Shown here: positions 12,884 through 46,196 of the stretch, one piece after another
Layout: the number at the start of each line of letters is the position of its first letter
How positions within the stretch are numbered: the first letter of the stretch is position 1
Source of the DNA: Planctomycetota bacterium
GTDB taxonomy: Bacteria; Planctomycetota; UBA1135; GCA-002686595
Assembly: GCA_016872715.1 (NCBI GenBank)
Contig: VGZD01000005.1
Span: 1-64,000 of the forward strand
Direction: 5' to 3'
DNA: 64,000 nt
Position numbers and translations under genes: made by a program
The notes under the pieces: model-generated
What the model was told of the DNA's origin: nothing
Seen by the model: the letters and a program-made list of their open reading frames with translations, nothing else
The model's database searches: none

Positions 12884-13260
12884 GGCGTGAGAGGTCTGGA
12901 CCGTCGTCGGCGGGCAACCGCAGGAGGAAAGTCCGGACTCCACGGGTCAGGGTGGTTGCCAACGGCAACCGGCCGCGAGGCCAGGGAAAGTGCCACAGAA
13001 AACAAACCGCCGCGCGCTCCTCACGGGGCGCTCGGCAAGGGTGAAACGGTGCGGTAAGAGCGCACCGCGGAGCTGGTGACAGCTCTGGCAGGGCAAACCC
13101 CACTCGGAGAAAGACCAAATAGGGATGGCTCATGGGGACGACCCGCTCCTCGCCATCCGGGTAGGTCGTTCGAGGCCGAGCGCGAGCTCGGTCCTAGAGA
13201 AAGGACGGTCTCGCCGCGCAAGCGGCTAGCCAGGATCCGGCTTACAGGACCTCTCACGCC
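12884..13260 (+). ncRNA. rnpB: RNase P RNA, bacterial type A
   Basis: GGAGGAAAGTCCGGACTCCA, ACAGAAAACAAACCGCC, GGTAAGAGCGCACC, AGACCAAATAGGG; terminal P1 helix GGCGTGAGAGGTC/GACCTCTCACGCC. Confidence 0.96.
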
Positions 13261-15831: not shown

Positions 15832-16067
15832 TGCGGTTGGACTTGCCCGACACCTCGGATCGATGATCGGGGCGGGCTGGAGGCATGGAGTCGGGCGCCT
15901 CCCGGGGGCGGCCGACTCCGTTGGCTCGAGCGCGAGCGAGACTCGCCGAGCGAGCACCACTCGCGCCGCGACCGCCACGGCGCGCGCTGCTTCACGGGGA
16001 TCGCTGAGAATCCCGGGCGTCGAGCGCTGGGCGAGGCCGATGTGCGTCGGGAGCGACCCGCTCGCGC

Positions 16068-38053: not shown

Positions 38054-39094
38054 TCAGCGAGCCCGCTCCACGTCCACCAAGAACTCCCAGCCGCCCTGCC
38101 CGGGGATCGCGGCCCCGCTTCCATCGAGACACAGGAGCGCGCCGGGCGCTGCGAGCCACAGCGAGCCATCGTCCCCGGCGCTCGCTCGGCTCGCTCCGCC
38201 GTGGGCGAGGTCGACGTGGGCGAGCTCGAGCACTCCGCCCGGACCGAAGCGCCGCGCGAACGCCCCGGCTTCATCGCACAGCCACACACGCTCCGCTCCC
38301 TCGACCGGTGCGAGCGTGAGCGCCGCCACTCCGGCGGGCACCTGCCAGCGCGAGGCGAGGTCGCGTCCGAGCAGCGCCAGCCGCGCTCCCCCCGCGCCCG
38401 AAGCCACGTCGAGCACCCACCACTGCCCCTGCTGCGGTCCCGGCGCCACGTCGCTGATCACACCCCCGAACGCGCGCCGCGCGAGGCGCTGACCGTCGGG
38501 CCCAAAGAGCCTCAGCTCGCCGCGCTCGGACCCGACCAGCGTGCACCCCCACGCCGCCGCCGCGCAGAAGGCATCGGAGCTGCGCTCGACGGTCACGCAA
38601 CCGCCGCTCCTCGCAACCCGGGATACGCGTCGCTCGCCGCCGCTGTCCAACTCGACCACCAGCGCCTCGTCGCCGACCGGCCCCGAGAGCTCCACGCCGT
38701 GCACCGTCTCCAGATCGAGCACCGTCGAGAGCGCCCACTCGCGCGTGACGCCGCCGCTCTCGTCATCCACCAGCAGCAGCCGAGTCGGCCCGAGCGGCGA
38801 GGCGGGGTTCGCGCTCACCACCCAGAGGTCCCCATCGCTCGCCGCGGCGAGTTCCACCGGCGCGGGCACGACGAACCGGCGCACGAGCAGCCGATCCGCG
38901 TCGAGCCCCGCGAGCGCGTTGCCGTCGCGATCGAGCACCCAGCCCGCGATCGCGCCGCGCTCCGCCGCGCTCGAGCCCTTGGACGTGAGCCCCAAGAAGC
39001 CCAGACACGCCGCCGCGCCCGCGACCATGCACGCCGCGCCGCGCATCGCCGTGGAGATCCCCCACCAGTTCCAACGTTCGCTCCAGCCCCCCAT
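38054..39094 (-). CDS. membrane-anchored beta-propeller-like protein of unknown function
   Basis: N-terminal TM; repeated GDLWVV/GQWWVLD/GSLWLAAPG blades. Confidence 0.55.
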   Translation of the reverse strand: MGGWSERWNWWGISTAMRGAACMVAGAAACLGFLGLTSKGSSAAERGAIAGWVLDRDGNALAGLDADRLLVRRFVVPAPVELAAASDGDLWVVSANPASPLGPTRLLLVDDESGGVTREWALSTVLDLETVHGVELSGPVGDEALVVELDSGGERRVSRVARSGGCVTVERSSDAFCAAAAWGCTLVGSERGELRLFGPDGQRLARRAFGGVISDVAPGPQQGQWWVLDVASGAGGARLALLGRDLASRWQVPAGVAALTLAPVEGAERVWLCDEAGAFARRFGPGGVLELAHVDLAHGGASRASAGDDGSLWLAAPGALLCLDGSGAAIPGQGGWEFLVDVERAR

Positions 39095-39184
39095 GACTCA
39101 CCTCCGCATCCCCGTCGCTACGGGAGCGCGCTGGTCGCTGGGAAAAAGGCGAAATCCACCGCGCGCCGCCGCGCGCGGCAGCGC

Positions 39185-39487
39185 TCAGCTCGCCCGCCGC
39201 TCGTCCGCTTCCCAGCGGATCGCACCGGGAGTCGAGAGCTGCTCGCCGCGCGCACGCCGCGCATCCGCGCTGCGGAAGGAGCGCCAGACCACGAACCCGA
39301 AACCGACCGGGATCAGGAACACCATCGAGATCATGAACAGCACGCTCGAGTTGATGCCCGCGGCGAGGTTGCCACCGTCGGAGGCGACCGCCTCCTTGCA
39401 GCTCTCTCAGGCGTAGCCGGTCGCGCGCAGCACGATCAACGCGCAGAGCGGTGCGGCGAGGCGCGCGGTGCGGGCGAGGGCGTTCAT
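39185..39487 (-). CDS. candidate selenoprotein: small membrane protein with UxxC motif (Sec27)
   Basis: MNALARTARLAAPLCALIVLRATGYA-TGA(39407-39409)-ESCKEAVASDGGNLAAGINSSVLFMISMVFLIPVGFGFVVWRSFRSADARRARGEQLSTPGAIRWEADERRAS; signal peptide, redox motif and one TM in a single frame. Confidence 0.85.
39380..39395 (-). promoter_or_regulatory. putative bacterial SECIS hairpin for the small membrane CDS
   Basis: mRNA GGAGGC-GGUC-GCCUCC, 6-bp GC-rich stem, GU at loop positions 2-3, loop starts 17 nt after the UGA. Confidence 0.6.
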
Positions 39488-39498
39488 CGGCGTGACTC

Positions 39499-39939
39499 CT
39501 AGGATAGCGCAGGCGCTGGATTGAGGTGGTAGAGCACCACGTACACCGCCACGCCCGTCACCGACACGTACAGCCAGATCGGGAAGGTCCACCGCGCCAG
39601 CCTGCGATGTGCTTCCCAGCGCTCCTTGCGCGCGAGCCAGAAGGTGCGCAGCACCATCGGCAGGTTGACGACCGCGAGCACGGTGTGGCTCGCGAGCAGC
39701 GCGAGGTACGCCGTGCGCGCGTGCCCTGCGCCGTGGTAGCGCGTGGGCTGCCCCGCGGCGACCGCGACGTGGTAGTAGAGGTAGCAGGCGAGGAACGCAG
39801 CGCTCGCGACGAAGGCGAGCTTCATGCAGCGCTCGTGCAGCTCTCGACGCCCACCCTTGATCGCGACCAGCCCTGCCACGAGGAACGCGGCGGCCACGCC
39901 GTTGAGCGTCGCGTTGACGGCCGGAAGGTGCACGCTCAT
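39499..39939 (-). CDS. DUF420-type integral membrane protein
   Basis: Four hydrophobic helices, LNGVAAAFLVAGLVAIKGGRRELHERCMKLAF; cox-operon location. Confidence 0.8.
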   Translation of the reverse strand: MSVHLPAVNATLNGVAAAFLVAGLVAIKGGRRELHERCMKLAFVASAAFLACYLYYHVAVAAGQPTRYHGAGHARTAYLALLASHTVLAVVNLPMVLRTFWLARKERWEAHRRLARWTFPIWLYVSVTGVAVYVVLYHLNPAPALS

Positions 39940-40574
39940 GCGTCGGGGTGCTCCGCGAGCCAGCGCGCGCGAGCGAGCGCACCCTCGACGCCCGCCTCGC
40001 TCTCGCCGTCGTACATGCCGCGCAGCACGCCCCGCCCGTCGAGCACGACCAGACGCGTCGAGTGCGTCACGCGCATGCCGAGCGCCACCTCGTCGTTCTT
40101 GCTGCGCGCCAGCCACAGCGAGCGCAGCACGCCGTCGATCTGCTCCTCCGCGCCGGTCAGAAACCGCCAGCGTGTCGCATCGGCCCCATACCCCTGTGCG
40201 TAGGCCGCGAGCACCTCGGGCGTGTCCGTCTCGGGATCGACGGAGAAGCTCGCGAGCCGCACGCTCGTGCCCGCGGTCCGCTGCTGGACCCGCGCCATGT
40301 TGGCGGACACGCGCGGGCAGGGGCCCGTGCAGGTCGTGAAGATGAAGTCGAGCACCGTCGGCGCACCCGCGAAGTCCGCGCGCCTCGCCGCCGCTCCGAG
40401 CTGGTCGACGAGCTCGAAGTCCGCCAGCAACGCGCCCTTGAACGCGGAACTCGCCTCCACGTCCAGTCGCGTGAGCGAGGACTGCTCGCGCGCGTCGCTC
40501 TCCTGCGAACAACCGCCACAGACGAGCACGGCGACCGCGAGGGCCGCCGCGCCGATCCTTCGCATCGCTGCCAT
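39936..40574 (-). CDS. SCO1/SenC-family copper chaperone, lipoprotein
   Basis: LVCGGCSQ lipobox; VLDFIFTTCTGPCPRVSANMARVQ. Confidence 0.93.
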   Translation of the reverse strand: MAAMRRIGAAALAVAVLVCGGCSQESDAREQSSLTRLDVEASSAFKGALLADFELVDQLGAAARRADFAGAPTVLDFIFTTCTGPCPRVSANMARVQQRTAGTSVRLASFSVDPETDTPEVLAAYAQGYGADATRWRFLTGAEEQIDGVLRSLWLARSKNDEVALGMRVTHSTRLVVLDGRGVLRGMYDGESEAGVEGALARARWLAEHPDA

Positions 40575-40583
40575 CGCGGAGTC

Positions 40584-41006
40584 CTAGTGCCCCGCGGCCG
40601 GCGCCTCGAGCTCGCTCGCGTGCCCGTGCGGCTTGCCGCGGCCCTTGGCCGGGTGGTCGGGGTCGAGGCCGTTCACGACCTCGCCCGTCTGATCGATCAA
40701 GTAGCCGACCTGATGGTCGCGCTGGTCGTTGAACGCGGTGTCCGGCATGTTCGCGCAGAGCACGATCGCCACGAGCAGCGGCGTCGGCAGGATCAGCGAC
40801 CACACGATCATCTTCTCGAACCGCATGTGCATGAAGTACAGGAGGATCAACAGGCCCTTCCACAGGGCGCAGATGATCAGTCCCGACCACAAGAGCCAGC
40901 GCGGCTCGCGCAGGAACATGCCCCACGCCACCTCCACCGACGTGAGGACGAAGAGGGTGATGAAGATCCTACCGATGCTGTAACCCATGTCCTTGCCGTG
41001 CGCCAT
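40584..41006 (-). CDS. cytochrome c oxidase subunit IV
   Basis: IFITLFVLTSVEVAWGM..LIICALWKGLLILLYFMHMRFE. Confidence 0.85.
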   Translation of the reverse strand: MAHGKDMGYSIGRIFITLFVLTSVEVAWGMFLREPRWLLWSGLIICALWKGLLILLYFMHMRFEKMIVWSLILPTPLLVAIVLCANMPDTAFNDQRDHQVGYLIDQTGEVVNGLDPDHPAKGRGKPHGHASELEAPAAGH

Positions 41007-41020
41007 GTTCGTTCCTCCGC

Positions 41021-41659
41021 TCACATCAGGTAGACGATCGTGAAGAGCAGCACCCACACGAGGTCGACGAAGTGCCAGTACAGACCGGCGAGCTCGACCT
41101 TCATGTACTTCTCCTGCGGGATCTTGCGGAAGATCGCCGCGATCAGGATGCACAAGTTCCAGATCACGCCCACGGCCACGTGGATGCCGTGGAAGCCGGT
41201 CATGGCGTAGAAGGTCGACCAGAAAATGTCGACGTCGGGCAGGTTCCCGTCCTTGATCAGGACCGCGTACTCGTAGGCCTGAATGCCGACGAAGGTCGCG
41301 CCGATCAGCACGGTCAGCGCCAGCCACTTGATGAGGCCCGGGTTGTCGCCGAGCATCGCGCGTTCCACGGCCTTCACCATCGTCGCCGAGCTGACGATCA
41401 GGAAGAACGTGTTGAGCGCCGTGATGTCGACCGCCAGCCGGTCCGCCGGGTCCGGCCACGTCGCGGCGCCCATGCGCAGCACGATGTAGGTGCCGATCAG
41501 TCCCGTGAAGAACATGACCTCCGTCGCGAGGAACAGCCAGATGGCGAACTTGCCGCGGTTGACCGGCGGGCCGCTGTCGTAGTCGTAGATCGCGTGATGC
41601 GGCTTGGGCGCATCGACGGCCGGGTCATGGGCCGGGAGGGCTGCGGAGGAGATGTTCAT
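41021..41659 (-). CDS. cytochrome c oxidase subunit III
   Basis: KFAIWLFLATEVMFFTGLIGTYIVLR; FYAMTGFHGIHVAVGV; LYWHFVDLVWVLLFTIVYL. Confidence 0.95.
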   Translation of the reverse strand: MNISSAALPAHDPAVDAPKPHHAIYDYDSGPPVNRGKFAIWLFLATEVMFFTGLIGTYIVLRMGAATWPDPADRLAVDITALNTFFLIVSSATMVKAVERAMLGDNPGLIKWLALTVLIGATFVGIQAYEYAVLIKDGNLPDVDIFWSTFYAMTGFHGIHVAVGVIWNLCILIAAIFRKIPQEKYMKVELAGLYWHFVDLVWVLLFTIVYLM

Positions 41660-41676: not shown

Positions 41677-42603
41677 CTAGAGAGTGCCTCGCGCACCGAC
41701 GGCGCGCACGAGGGGATCCATGAGGGTGAGCGAGTAGAGCGAGGGCAAGTACACCAGCGAGATGAGCACCACCGCCCGCGCGCGAGCGTGCGTCTCGCGC
41801 AGGGCGAACAGCGCCGCAGCGACCGTGTAGGCGAGGCCGAGCACGAGCGCGGAGGCGACGTACAGCCAGCCCGCATCACCGCGCAGGGCCGGGAGCAGCG
41901 AAACGGGCAGCAGCGCGAGGCTGTAGAGCAGCGATTGACGACCGGCCACCCCTTCGGTGCGCGGCAGCGCCGGCAGCATCTTGAGTCCGGCGCGCGCGTA
42001 GTCCTCGCGGTAGAGCCACGCGATGGCGAGGAAGTGCGGGAACTGCCACGCGAACAGGATCGCGAACAGGTACCAAGCCCAGCCCGCGGCCTCGCCTGCG
42101 ACGGCGACGTAGCCCAGCAGCGGCGGCATCGCGCCGGGGATCGCCCCCACCGCGGTGTTGAGCGAGCTCAAGCGCTTGAGCGGCGTGTAGACGAGCACGT
42201 AGGCCATCATCGTCGCGAGCGTGAGCAGCGCCGCGAGCGCGTTGAAGCGCAGCGCGAGTCCGAGCACGCCCGCGGCCGTCAGCAGCGCTCCGGCCCACAC
42301 CGCATCGCGGGCACGCAAGCGCCCGGTGACAAGCGGCCGTTGCGCGGTCCGCAGCATGCGCGCATCCGTGTCGCGCTCGAGCAACTGGTTGAACACGCTG
42401 GAGGCCATGCCGACGAGGCCGATGTAGCCGCAGGCCTCCGCGAGCGAAACGAGATCCGCGCTCGAGCCCGCGGCGAGCAATCCGCCGACGAAGGCCGCGA
42501 AGCCGACCATGGCGGTGATGCGCGGCTTGCAGAGCGTGCTCCACGCCTGCGCGGACGTCTGCAGCGCGACCGGGGCCGCCGCGAGCGCGTGACTCTGGCT
42601 CAC
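41677..42603 (-). CDS. ctaB: protoheme IX farnesyltransferase
   Basis: LCKPRITAMVGFAAFVGG, NQLLERDTDARMLRTAQRPLVTGRL, YTPLKRLSSLNTAVGAIPGAMPPLLGY. Confidence 0.95.
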   Translation of the reverse strand: MSQSHALAAAPVALQTSAQAWSTLCKPRITAMVGFAAFVGGLLAAGSSADLVSLAEACGYIGLVGMASSVFNQLLERDTDARMLRTAQRPLVTGRLRARDAVWAGALLTAAGVLGLALRFNALAALLTLATMMAYVLVYTPLKRLSSLNTAVGAIPGAMPPLLGYVAVAGEAAGWAWYLFAILFAWQFPHFLAIAWLYREDYARAGLKMLPALPRTEGVAGRQSLLYSLALLPVSLLPALRGDAGWLYVASALVLGLAYTVAAALFALRETHARARAVVLISLVYLPSLYSLTLMDPLVRAVGARGTL

Positions 42604-43544
42604 CGCGCCACCTCCGCGCCCGCGGGGCTCGCCACCGACTCTCTCAGCGTGAGCCTGCGCGCGATCCACAGGGCCGCGCCGACGCAGGCCTGCAGCGTGA
42701 ACGCGCCGAACAGCACGTGCGCGCTCGCCGTGATCGTCTCCGCGGCCGAGACCTCGGCCGTGAACCCGCCGCTGACGAGCACGATCGCCACCAGCGTGAG
42801 CACGCCGATCGCCACCTGCGCCAGAATGAGCCACAGCAGTTGCCGCGCCGCGCGCGCGAGCTCGGGGACGCGCGTCTCGCGCAAGCCGCGCGCGAGAGCG
42901 ATCACCGCGCCGGTCGCGAGCGCAGCGAACGCGATGTGGGCCACGAGCGCGAGGTCGTTGCCGCTGTGTCGCAGCCACGCTCCGAGGAAGATCTGACCGA
43001 AGACCGCGACGATGGCGAGCTTCGCCATGCGCCACAGCGACGCGGCCTGCGCGTGCTCGCGAGCGCGCGCGGCGAGGAAGCCCGCGTCGTTCAAAACCAC
43101 GTTCCCCGCCAGAATCGCGAGCACCGCCTGCGCGAACACCCCGTGGAGGAACGCCAGATTGGGGCTGTTCTCCAACACGCGCAGCCCGCCGATCGTGCCC
43201 TGCGCGCAGACCCCCAACAGCCCCGCCCAAGCGACGCGCACGCGTTGCGCACCGGCCTGCGCGCGCTGCACCGCGATCACCAGCGCGATCGAGAGCAGCC
43301 CGACCAAGGCCCCGAACAGTCGATGGGTGTGCTCGGTGAACGTGCCGACGTTCGCGAACCACTTCTCGATCGGGTAGGCGAACAGGAAGTGGTCTCCCTC
43401 GCCCCGGTCGAGGACCCACCAACCATCGATGGCCATGCCGGCGCGCAGCGTGGTGACGCTGGAGCCGAGCACGACGAGCGGCAGGGCGCTGAGCCAAGTG
43501 GCCAGCGCCAGCCGTCGGGGCCAAGGGTGCTTGAGGGAGTCCAT
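42600..43544 (-). CDS. ctaA: heme A synthase (COX15/CtaA)
   Basis: PLVVLGSSVTTLRAGMA, EHTHRLFGALVGLLSIAL, AHVLFGAFTLQACVGAALW. Confidence 0.92.
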   Translation of the reverse strand: MDSLKHPWPRRLALATWLSALPLVVLGSSVTTLRAGMAIDGWWVLDRGEGDHFLFAYPIEKWFANVGTFTEHTHRLFGALVGLLSIALVIAVQRAQAGAQRVRVAWAGLLGVCAQGTIGGLRVLENSPNLAFLHGVFAQAVLAILAGNVVLNDAGFLAARAREHAQAASLWRMAKLAIVAVFGQIFLGAWLRHSGNDLALVAHIAFAALATGAVIALARGLRETRVPELARAARQLLWLILAQVAIGVLTLVAIVLVSGGFTAEVSAAETITASAHVLFGAFTLQACVGAALWIARRLTLRESVASPAGAEVAR

Positions 43545-43581
43545 CCGTCGCGGATCGAAAAGGAATCGGCCGAGCGCGCTC

Positions 43582-45414
43582 TCAGAGCTTGCGCGTCTGC
43601 GGAATGAAGTCCTCTGCGACGTCCGGCGAGCTGAACTCGTAGGCGCCACGGTAGACCTCGAGCTGTCGATCGAAGTTGCCATGGCCCGGCGGCGACGGAG
43701 CGTCCCACTCCAGCGAGGCCGCGTTCCACGGGTTGCGGCCGACGCGCTTGCCCCAGAACATCGAGTGGAAGAAGTTCACCACGAAGAAGATCTGCCACGC
43801 GAACATGCAGAAGGCCGAGATCGTGATGAACTCGTTGATCGGCTGCAGGTGCTGGTAGACGTCGTAGGCGTAGGGGTCGGCGGTGCGACGCATCAGGCCG
43901 GCCACGCCGACCTGGTGCATCATGTAGAAGGTCATGTTCGTGAAGATGAACGACCCGACGAAGTGGACCTTGCCCACCGTCTCGTTCATCACGCGCCCGA
44001 ACATCTTCGGGAACCAGTGGTAGGCCGCGGCGAAAATCGCGAACAGCGAGCCCGCGAACACGACGTAGTGGAAGTGCGCCACGACGATGTAGGTGTCGTG
44101 GATGTAGATGTCGACCGGCGTCGCGGCCATCCAGATGCCCGAGAGGCCGCCGATGATGAACATCGAGACGAACGCGCAGGCAAACAGCATCGGGGTGCGC
44201 AGGTGGATGCGGCCGCCCCACAGGGTGCCCAGCCAGTTGAACACCTTGATCGCGCTCGGGAGCGCGATCATCACCGTGCTGACCATGAAGGTCATGCCCA
44301 GCGCCGGGTTCATGCCCGAAGTGAACATGTGGTGACCCCAGACGATGAAGCCCAGACCCGCGATGGCGCTCATCGAGTACACCATCGGCTTGTAGCCGAA
44401 GATCGGCTTGCGGGCGTGCACCGCGAGGATGTCCGAGGTGAAGCCCATGGCGGGCAGCACGAGGATGTAGACCGCGGGGTGGCTGTAGAACCAGAACAGG
44501 TGCTGCCACAGAAGCGGCTGACCGCCGGCGGCGGCGCCGACCGCATCCGCGCCGTAGAGGAACGAGTCCGGCGTGATGTTGTTGACCTGCAGGTTCGTCG
44601 GCGTGAAGAAGCCCGTGTTCAGCGTGCGGTCGAGCAACTGCAGGATGCCAGCGGCCGTCAGCACCGGCAGCGCGAACAGCTGCAGGAGCGACGTGATCAG
44701 CAGGCCCCAGATCGTGAGCGGCAGGCGCATCATCGTCAGGCCCGGCGCGCGCATCTTGACGATCGTGGTCACGTAGTTGACCGCGCCCATCATCGAGCTG
44801 ACGCCCACCCACGTGAGGCCGAGCAGCCAGCAGGTCTGGCCCGTGAGCGAGCCCGGCGCAGCGGATTCGATGGTCGACAGCGGCGGGTAGCTCGTCCAGC
44901 CGCCGGCGGCGTGGCCGCCTTCCACGAAGAAGCCCAGCAGGATGAAGAAGAACGCCGGGACCATGGCCCAGTAGCCGAACATGTTCAGCTTCGGGAAGGC
45001 CATGTCGGGCGCGCCGATCATCAGCGGGATCAGGAAGTTGCCGAACGCGCCCGTCAGCAGCGGGATCATCACGAAGAAGATCATGATGGTCCCGTGCATC
45101 GTGAAGAGCATGGTGTAGAACTCGGGGCTGATCGCACCGCCCGTGGCGGGGAACATCCACGCCAGTCCCGGCATCGGGCGCCACGGCCACGCGAGTTGGT
45201 AGCGGATGGCCATCGCCATCAGGCCGCCGAGCGCGAGGAACACGAGGCCCGAGAAGAGGAACTGCATGCCGATCACCTTGTGATCGACCGAGAAGATCCA
45301 CTTGCGGAGGAAGCCGAGCTCGTGGTGGTCGTGGTGCGCGCGGACGGTTCCCGCCTCGCCCTCACCGGGCTCGAGGTGCGGACTGTTCGCTGCGTGCGTC
45401 GTTGCCTGACTCAT
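43582..45414 (-). CDS. cytochrome c oxidase subunit I
   Basis: SVDHKVIGMQF, WQHLFWFYSHPAVYILVLPAMG, HHMFTSGMNP, DTYIVVAHFHYV. Confidence 0.98.
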   Translation of the reverse strand: MSQATTHAANSPHLEPGEGEAGTVRAHHDHHELGFLRKWIFSVDHKVIGMQFLFSGLVFLALGGLMAMAIRYQLAWPWRPMPGLAWMFPATGGAISPEFYTMLFTMHGTIMIFFVMIPLLTGAFGNFLIPLMIGAPDMAFPKLNMFGYWAMVPAFFFILLGFFVEGGHAAGGWTSYPPLSTIESAAPGSLTGQTCWLLGLTWVGVSSMMGAVNYVTTIVKMRAPGLTMMRLPLTIWGLLITSLLQLFALPVLTAAGILQLLDRTLNTGFFTPTNLQVNNITPDSFLYGADAVGAAAGGQPLLWQHLFWFYSHPAVYILVLPAMGFTSDILAVHARKPIFGYKPMVYSMSAIAGLGFIVWGHHMFTSGMNPALGMTFMVSTVMIALPSAIKVFNWLGTLWGGRIHLRTPMLFACAFVSMFIIGGLSGIWMAATPVDIYIHDTYIVVAHFHYVVFAGSLFAIFAAAYHWFPKMFGRVMNETVGKVHFVGSFIFTNMTFYMMHQVGVAGLMRRTADPYAYDVYQHLQPINEFITISAFCMFAWQIFFVVNFFHSMFWGKRVGRNPWNAASLEWDAPSPPGHGNFDRQLEVYRGAYEFSSPDVAEDFIPQTRKL

Positions 45415-46196
45415 TGGCCTTGCTCCTTGCCGTTGGAGAACCACTCGGCCTTGATGTCGGCCATGCGCTTGTCGAATTCAGCCTGCGAGACAACGGTCAT
45501 GCGACCACTCATCTTGTAGTGACCCCAGCCGCACAGCTCGGCGCAGACGAGGTCGTAAATGCCTTCCTTCTCGGCGCGGAACCACACGGGAATCGTGTGG
45601 CCGGGGAGCGCGTCCTGCTTGAGGCGGAACTCCGGCACGAAGAAGCTGTGAATCACGTCGCGCGAGCGCAGGTGGAACACGATGTCGGTGTTCACCGGCA
45701 CCACGAATTCGTAGGAGCGCTCGAGGTCGTCGGCGGTGCCGATGGCGCCGTCGTCGCCGGGGTAGCACACTCGCCAGTCGAACTGGCTGGCCCACAGCTC
45801 GGCGATCGGGCGCTCCTTGGTGTACTTGCCGCCCTTGGGGAAGTTGCTCTCGAACTTCACCTTGGCCCACGTCTCCATCTGCGAGAACGCGATGAAGAGC
45901 AGCGCCACCGCGGGAATCGCGGTCCAGATCATCTCCAGCTTGTGGCTGCCGTGGGTGAACACGGCCTTGCCCGGGCGATTCGCCGAGAACTTGAACACGA
46001 ACCACGCCAGCGCCAGCTCGGTGACGATGAACGTGAATCCGACCATGTACAGGATCAGGTTGAAGAGCCCGTCGATCTCGCCGCCGAAGCTCGAGACGTT
46101 CTGGGGGAACCACAACTGCCAGCGGTCGGCCTCGACAAAGGTCCAGACGCCGAGGATCGGCACCAGCAGGAGCATCAGAGTGAAGAAGTAGCGCAT
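45411..46196 (-). CDS. cytochrome c oxidase subunit II
   Basis: CuA motif CAELCGWGHYKMSGRMTVV; two N-terminal TM helices; LEMIWTAIPA. Confidence 0.96.
   Translation of the reverse strand: MRYFFTLMLLLVPILGVWTFVEADRWQLWFPQNVSSFGGEIDGLFNLILYMVGFTFIVTELALAWFVFKFSANRPGKAVFTHGSHKLEMIWTAIPAVALLFIAFSQMETWAKVKFESNFPKGGKYTKERPIAELWASQFDWRVCYPGDDGAIGTADDLERSYEFVVPVNTDIVFHLRSRDVIHSFFVPEFRLKQDALPGHTIPVWFRAEKEGIYDLVCAELCGWGHYKMSGRMTVVSQAEFDKRMADIKAEWFSNGKEQGQ

Follow-up and report, generated by a model that had tools for sequence, protein, structure and literature searches.

The gene analysed here lies on the minus strand of the window (the whole stretch of 64,000 nucleotides that was analysed), where it stands at the end of an operon whose preceding genes are in the order COX2-COX1-CtaA-CtaB-COX3-COX4-SCO-DUF420. 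The features of this region are, from upstream to downstream:

43582..46196, minus strand: cytochrome c oxidase subunits I and II, with the CuA motif CAELCGWGH in subunit II (from sequence and context)
41677..43682, minus strand: heme O synthase CtaB and heme A synthase CtaA (assigned by sequence and context)
41021..41659, minus strand: cytochrome c oxidase subunit III (assigned by sequence and context)
40584..41006, minus strand: cytochrome oxidase subunit IV-type protein, COX4/CyoD-like (from operon position and homologues, without a Pfam scan)
39936..40574, minus strand: SCO1/SenC copper chaperone with a CxxxC motif, CTGPC (Pfam PF02630, E 1.6e-25)
39499..39939, minus strand: DUF420 membrane protein, the immediate upstream neighbour (Pfam PF04238, E 8.9e-42)
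39496..39500, minus strand: AGGAG, a plausible ribosome-binding site 8 nt upstream of the ATG, overlapping the DUF420 stop (sequence only)
39185..39487, minus strand: proposed selenoprotein gene, 100 codons counting the Sec UGA, then the stop TGA at 39185-39187
39410..39487, minus strand: predicted signal peptide or N-terminal hydrophobic helix (residues 1-26), ending in TGYA before Sec (hydropathy and model)
39407..39409, minus strand: in-frame UGA, proposed Sec27, first position of a UxxC motif; same TGA column in relatives
39398..39400, minus strand: Cys30, second position of the UxxC motif; TGC in 24/24 Sec relatives of the near set
39380..39395, minus strand: bSECIS-type hairpin GGAGGC-GGUC-GCCUCC, with its loop at 39386-39389, 17 nt past the UGA
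39281..39349, minus strand: predicted transmembrane helix (about residues 47-69), then a basic, probably cytoplasmic tail (hydropathy and model)

The DUF420 gene ends with a TAG at 39501-39499, and the ATG of the proposed selenoprotein gene is found 11 nt further downstream, at 39487, with the in-frame TGA at 39409-39407. A preliminary description of the locus, made from sequence alone, had given this frame and this spacing (11 nt after DUF420, SCO next, all on the same strand), and both held, the translation being identical letter for letter. Its statement that the unit contains no other listed ORF failed, as two long mechanical ORFs overlap it. The first of them (38201-39502, plus strand) is antisense to the gene, while the second (39407-39982, minus strand) is the selenoprotein frame extended upstream, where it runs across DUF420 and SCO in a frame that neither of them uses. 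Downstream of the gene, an ORF of 346 amino acids at 38054-39094 (minus strand) has no Pfam match. Elsewhere in the window, a bacterial RNase P RNA of class A at 12888-13260 (plus strand) is the sole Rfam match at the gathering threshold.

Homologues of the protein continue past the TGA. When 61 related genomes were searched in six frames, 29 hits were obtained, most of them with one in-frame TGA; two (L028 and L029) were unrelated, leaving 27 true relatives. The nearest ones with named contigs come from planctomycete metagenome assemblies. The TGA occupies the first motif position in 24 of the 27, and the other three carry TGC (Cys) there. These codons were checked directly, because the MAFFT alignment (A1) displaces a Cys form, L022, by three residues. 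Since the same TGA recurs in several independent assemblies from many genera, a sequencing error can be excluded. The sequence downstream of the TGA is under purifying selection, with within-genus dN/dS values of 0.09-0.31 that are lower than those of the signal-peptide part in nearly every pair, the single values being rough due to the shortness of the sequences.

Searching 392 Planctomycetota genomes with a profile extended the family to 108 of them. The 107 loci fetched, which exclude those of the window and of two near relatives, comprise 31 UxxC, 13 CxxU and 60 CxxC forms (104 loci classified by motif) and three that remained unclassified. The UGA thus takes the place of the first or the second Cys in a single CxxC motif, depending on the lineage. 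It aligns with Cys and with nothing else, the 60 CxxC forms run straight through the site, and TGA is confined to the motif positions. In a family tree built with the motif positions masked, from few columns and with weak forks, a rough count gives 14 changes between motif forms, and gain cannot be separated from loss. Two loci near the profile match are of a different aspect: L157 (genome G253) reads AKUUEG, where two TGA codons stand side by side, and L173 (genome G242) reads CPGUKE, without a clear signal peptide.

The preliminary description had also reported the hairpin that follows the UGA, which was confirmed exactly at 39395-39380. Its stem of 6 bp starts 11 nt after the UGA and it folds at -10.4 kcal/mol. 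Published constraints for bSECIS elements demand a loop of 3-9 nt with a G in the first two positions, a stem of 4-16 bp, a distance of 16-37 nt from the UGA, and an MFE at or below -7.5 (PMC13188914), all of which are satisfied by this hairpin (loop GGUC, 6 bp, 17 nt, -10.4 kcal/mol). By itself, the hairpin was rejected as proof of Sec and is only weak evidence, because a comparable GGU-loop hairpin follows 14 of the 894 TGA triplets in the window (1.6%). One further TGA in the window, at 15994 (minus strand), precedes a 9-bp GGU-loop hairpin; its read-through is not protein-like, and the combination is probably due to chance.

What exceeds chance is conservation, as 24 related loci have the TGA in the same column. 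In all 24 of these near relatives the loop codons GCG GTC are invariant, though Ala and Val have synonymous codons; stem pairing is kept in 94% of cells, and three pairs show compensatory change. Across the phylum, 28/44 Sec forms (21/31 UxxC and 7/13 CxxU) have, at the expected distance, a GGU-loop hairpin whose stem is 5 bp or longer, compared with 0/60 Cys forms. Because this distance is counted from the UGA, the hairpin of CxxU forms lies nine bases further along the frame, moving with the UGA; loci with this shift in step include L104, L115, L129, L136, L150, L169 and L176. The folding MFE is below that of synonymous-codon shuffles in Sec forms but not in Cys forms (p 7.7e-8). The 16 Sec forms of the 44 that lack a simple GGU-loop hairpin count against the reading, although they may use other structures. 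The UxxC forms in this situation include L074-L076 (genus g56), L108, L109, L139 and L147, whose SECIS elements are perhaps atypical.

These data bear on an alternative in which the UGA is a true stop that ends a short leader peptide, and the remainder is untranslated or a separately started remnant (a pseudogene, or the product of a sequencing error). Standard gene finding indeed ends here, and TGA is the ordinary stop of other genes in the operon, such as SCO and subunit III. Nevertheless, this reading is very unlikely, given that the TGA is common to independent assemblies, selection persists past it, Cys homologues read straight through, TGA occurs only at the motif positions, and the Cys forms have no hairpin.

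The genome also encodes the machinery for Sec insertion, namely a tRNA-Sec (anticodon TCA), SelA, SelB and SelD. SelA was identified with TIGR00474, a search with PF00266 being uninformative about it. The genes for SelA, SelD and tRNA-Sec are located on one contig and that for SelB on another; the SelD gene (L182, G000:C82) has an in-frame TGA of its own. Among the genomes of the phylum-wide set, tRNA-Sec is found in 41/47 with a Sec form versus 25/58 with only a Cys form (Fisher p 2.5e-6), a p-value that is only a guide because related genomes are not independent. Three of the six Sec-form genomes without tRNA-Sec do have SelA, and the other three are assemblies that are 67-79% complete. A second alternative, decoding of the UGA as another amino acid through code reassignment or a suppressor tRNA, shares with the selenoprotein reading the need for read-through. 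It is practically ruled out by the sole alignment of the UGA with Cys, by the use of TGA to end other genes of the operon, and by the presence of the complete set of tRNA-Sec, SelA, SelB and SelD.

The preliminary description had named three results that would refute a selenoprotein: no homologues downstream of the TGA, no Cys or Sec conservation at its column, or no Sec machinery. All three points were checked and none was met, since homologues continue beyond the TGA, the column holds Sec or Cys throughout, and the machinery is present. The hairpin, for which it had proposed SECIS prediction, behaves as such an element should. It is therefore almost certain that the gene encodes a real selenoprotein whose UGA is read as selenocysteine. 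This rests on sequence comparison without protein-level evidence, and a point against it is that no peptide, Ribo-seq or mutant data exist.

Regarding the protein itself, hydropathy reveals an N-terminal hydrophobic stretch, also found in most relatives, and one strong transmembrane segment. This matches the signal peptide and single transmembrane helix of the preliminary description, which placed the UGA right after the cleavage site; the sequence pattern and the basic tail are the grounds for inferring that cleavage precedes Sec and that the motif faces outward. An AlphaFold2 model (mean pLDDT 73.8, pTM 0.41) contains helices at residues 3-22, 28-34 and 47-79, the last with pLDDT above 90 over most of its length. 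The motif is predicted at the start of a helix, resembling the usual setting of CxxC, at a point where the model has low confidence. This geometry is only suggestive because the overall confidence of the model is low, the structure amounting to one helix and a part of low confidence. No thioredoxin domain was found, there being no Pfam match, no PDB relative, and an all-helical, low-confidence model.

The family is encoded alongside cox and SCO genes across lineages, an association that is weak for CxxU forms. A cox or cta gene is located nearby in 29/31 UxxC and 44/60 CxxC loci, and the immediate upstream neighbour is SCO or DUF420 in 17 UxxC and 37 CxxC loci; several loci are truncated by contig ends. 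Five inspected loci without recognised neighbours have surroundings that look unrelated, so the linkage to the oxidase is strong but not universal. It has been considered, as a less likely possibility, that the protein may have a general redox role in the envelope (thiol homeostasis or peroxide defence), with its position in the oxidase operon serving only for co-expression. In favour of this possibility, cox genes are missing from the neighbourhood of several loci, chiefly CxxU loci in families f70 and f77, and the neighbours in the examined locus of the CxxU family f70 are unrelated. Against it, UxxC, CxxU and CxxC forms alike, from many families, are found adjacent to SCO or DUF420. A role in oxidase biogenesis remains the likely one, although it is inferred and not supported by mutant data.

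Before copper is loaded, the cysteines of SCO (in its CxxxC) and of the CuA site in subunit II must be in reduced form, and in Bradyrhizobium it is TlpA that reduces them (PMC9145763). In the mechanism proposed for the planctomycete protein, SelB, guided by the GGUC-loop hairpin, would insert Sec at residue 27 instead of termination taking place. The N-terminal hydrophobic segment would export the protein, and its single transmembrane helix would anchor it with the basic tail inside, so that Sec27 and Cys30 would face outward, where a short helix begins. There, while cytochrome c oxidase is being assembled, the protein would serve as a selenol/thiol reductant that holds the CxxxC of SCO, the CuA cysteines of subunit II, or both, in the reduced state needed for copper loading. 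A membrane protein of the DsbD/CcdA type is encoded in the genome and could feed electrons outward. Taken as a whole, a selenoprotein of this family acting as a reductant in oxidase assembly is likely the best explanation. The Sec/Cys exchange, the SECIS-like element, the Sec machinery, the purifying selection and the gene order are shown by sequence, while export, topology, redox activity and substrate are inferred. The same applies to the proposal of the preliminary description, an exported U-x-x-C thiol/selenol protein working in copper-oxidase assembly, whose link to the oxidase is backed by gene order and whose biochemical role is inferred. A point against the explanation as a whole is that only 4/13 CxxU loci are near cox or cta genes, though five have SCO or DUF420 directly upstream. 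CxxC motifs in membrane proteins may also bind metals or be structural.

In the main rival reading of the same selenoprotein, its selenol and thiol would not reduce disulfides but would be Cu(I) ligands that ferry the metal to SCO, subunit II or CuB. CxxC is well known as a Cu(I) site, either motif position tolerates Sec, as a ligand role would allow, and the operon evidence is the same as for the reductant. PCuAC is the usual periplasmic copper carrier for CuA, and 36 of the 37 genomes from the family and order lack it, many of them having cytochrome c oxidase operons; this absence makes a replacement copper carrier plausible. On the other hand, the motif has no nearby cluster of His or Met, Sec is mainly known in redox sites, and the CcdA/DsbD-type protein of the genome fits a reductant at least as well. 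The copper carrier is regarded as the less likely candidate. If a role in oxidase biogenesis is granted, the preference for the reductant is itself an inference, with the balance between the two readings close to level and tilted, at most, a little towards it. It remains possible, as the boldest form of the carrier reading, that planctomycetes lacking PCuAC deliver copper to SCO or the CuA site via a membrane-anchored Sec/Cys pair, a selenolate-thiolate Cu(I) carrier.

Returning to the reductant, the closest functional parallel is TlpA, the periplasmic thioredoxin of Bradyrhizobium (PMC9145763). Both proteins would be membrane-anchored, outward-facing dithiols tied to SCO and CuA biogenesis, this being inferred for the planctomycete side. 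Contrary to TlpA, which has a thioredoxin domain, the planctomycete protein has no Pfam match, contains Sec in many members, and holds only about 20 residues between the motif and the membrane helix. With the known UxxC selenoproteins (thioredoxin and DsbA-, DsbG- and TlpA-like proteins; PMC13188914) it shares UxxC/CxxU motifs, Cys homologues and a bSECIS-like hairpin. Unlike them, it lacks Pfam/NCBIfam homology, spans the membrane once, and carries Sec at either motif position, lineage by lineage, within one family. SCO1/SenC and PCuAC belong to the same pathway by gene order, with SCO adjacent, but they have no sequence similarity to the selenoprotein; SCO holds CxxxC in a thioredoxin fold and PCuAC relies on His/Met. 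CtaK, CtaM and similar proteins (PMC9145763) are also small factors for oxidase assembly, a likeness of role only, no Pfam/NCBIfam link having been found.

Searches of Pfam and NCBIfam gave no significant match for Sec or Cys forms, a PDB profile search returned chance matches only and no sequence relative, and a plasmid search with the Cys form gave no match. A wider contig scan, which hardly covered phyla beyond Planctomycetota, retrieved only four close planctomycete loci. The family is not among the 119 prokaryotic selenoprotein families of the 2026 inventory (PMC13188914, Table 1), and no description of it was found in the open literature searched, a scope that excludes supplementary tables, for example the list of selenoprotein candidates in PMC4807772. 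These small membrane-anchored [U/C]xx[C/U] proteins of Planctomycetota thus constitute a conserved family that is probably undescribed, although it may already have been noted in supplementary tables or in other work outside this search. Its novelty is that of a family within a known kind, the bacterial selenoprotein, with Sec at either motif position as its unusual trait. The CxxU lineages, the spread through the phylum and the absence of a database model lay beyond the view of the preliminary description.

If these readings are correct, an undescribed selenoprotein family that is spread widely through one phylum, and that standard gene callers miss, links selenium to how the aerobic respiratory oxidase is built. 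It would also be a concrete candidate for a missing thiol or copper step in the oxidase assembly of bacteria without PCuAC, and, should the bolder carrier reading be true, a selenium-based copper chaperone. The exchange of Sec and Cys at both positions, with a hairpin moving along with the UGA, provides a comparison set for the question of why Sec replaces Cys, and for the gain and loss of SECIS elements. One genome (G148) carries two copies, a Sec form (UPSC) and a Cys form (CAMC), at loci L087 and L102.
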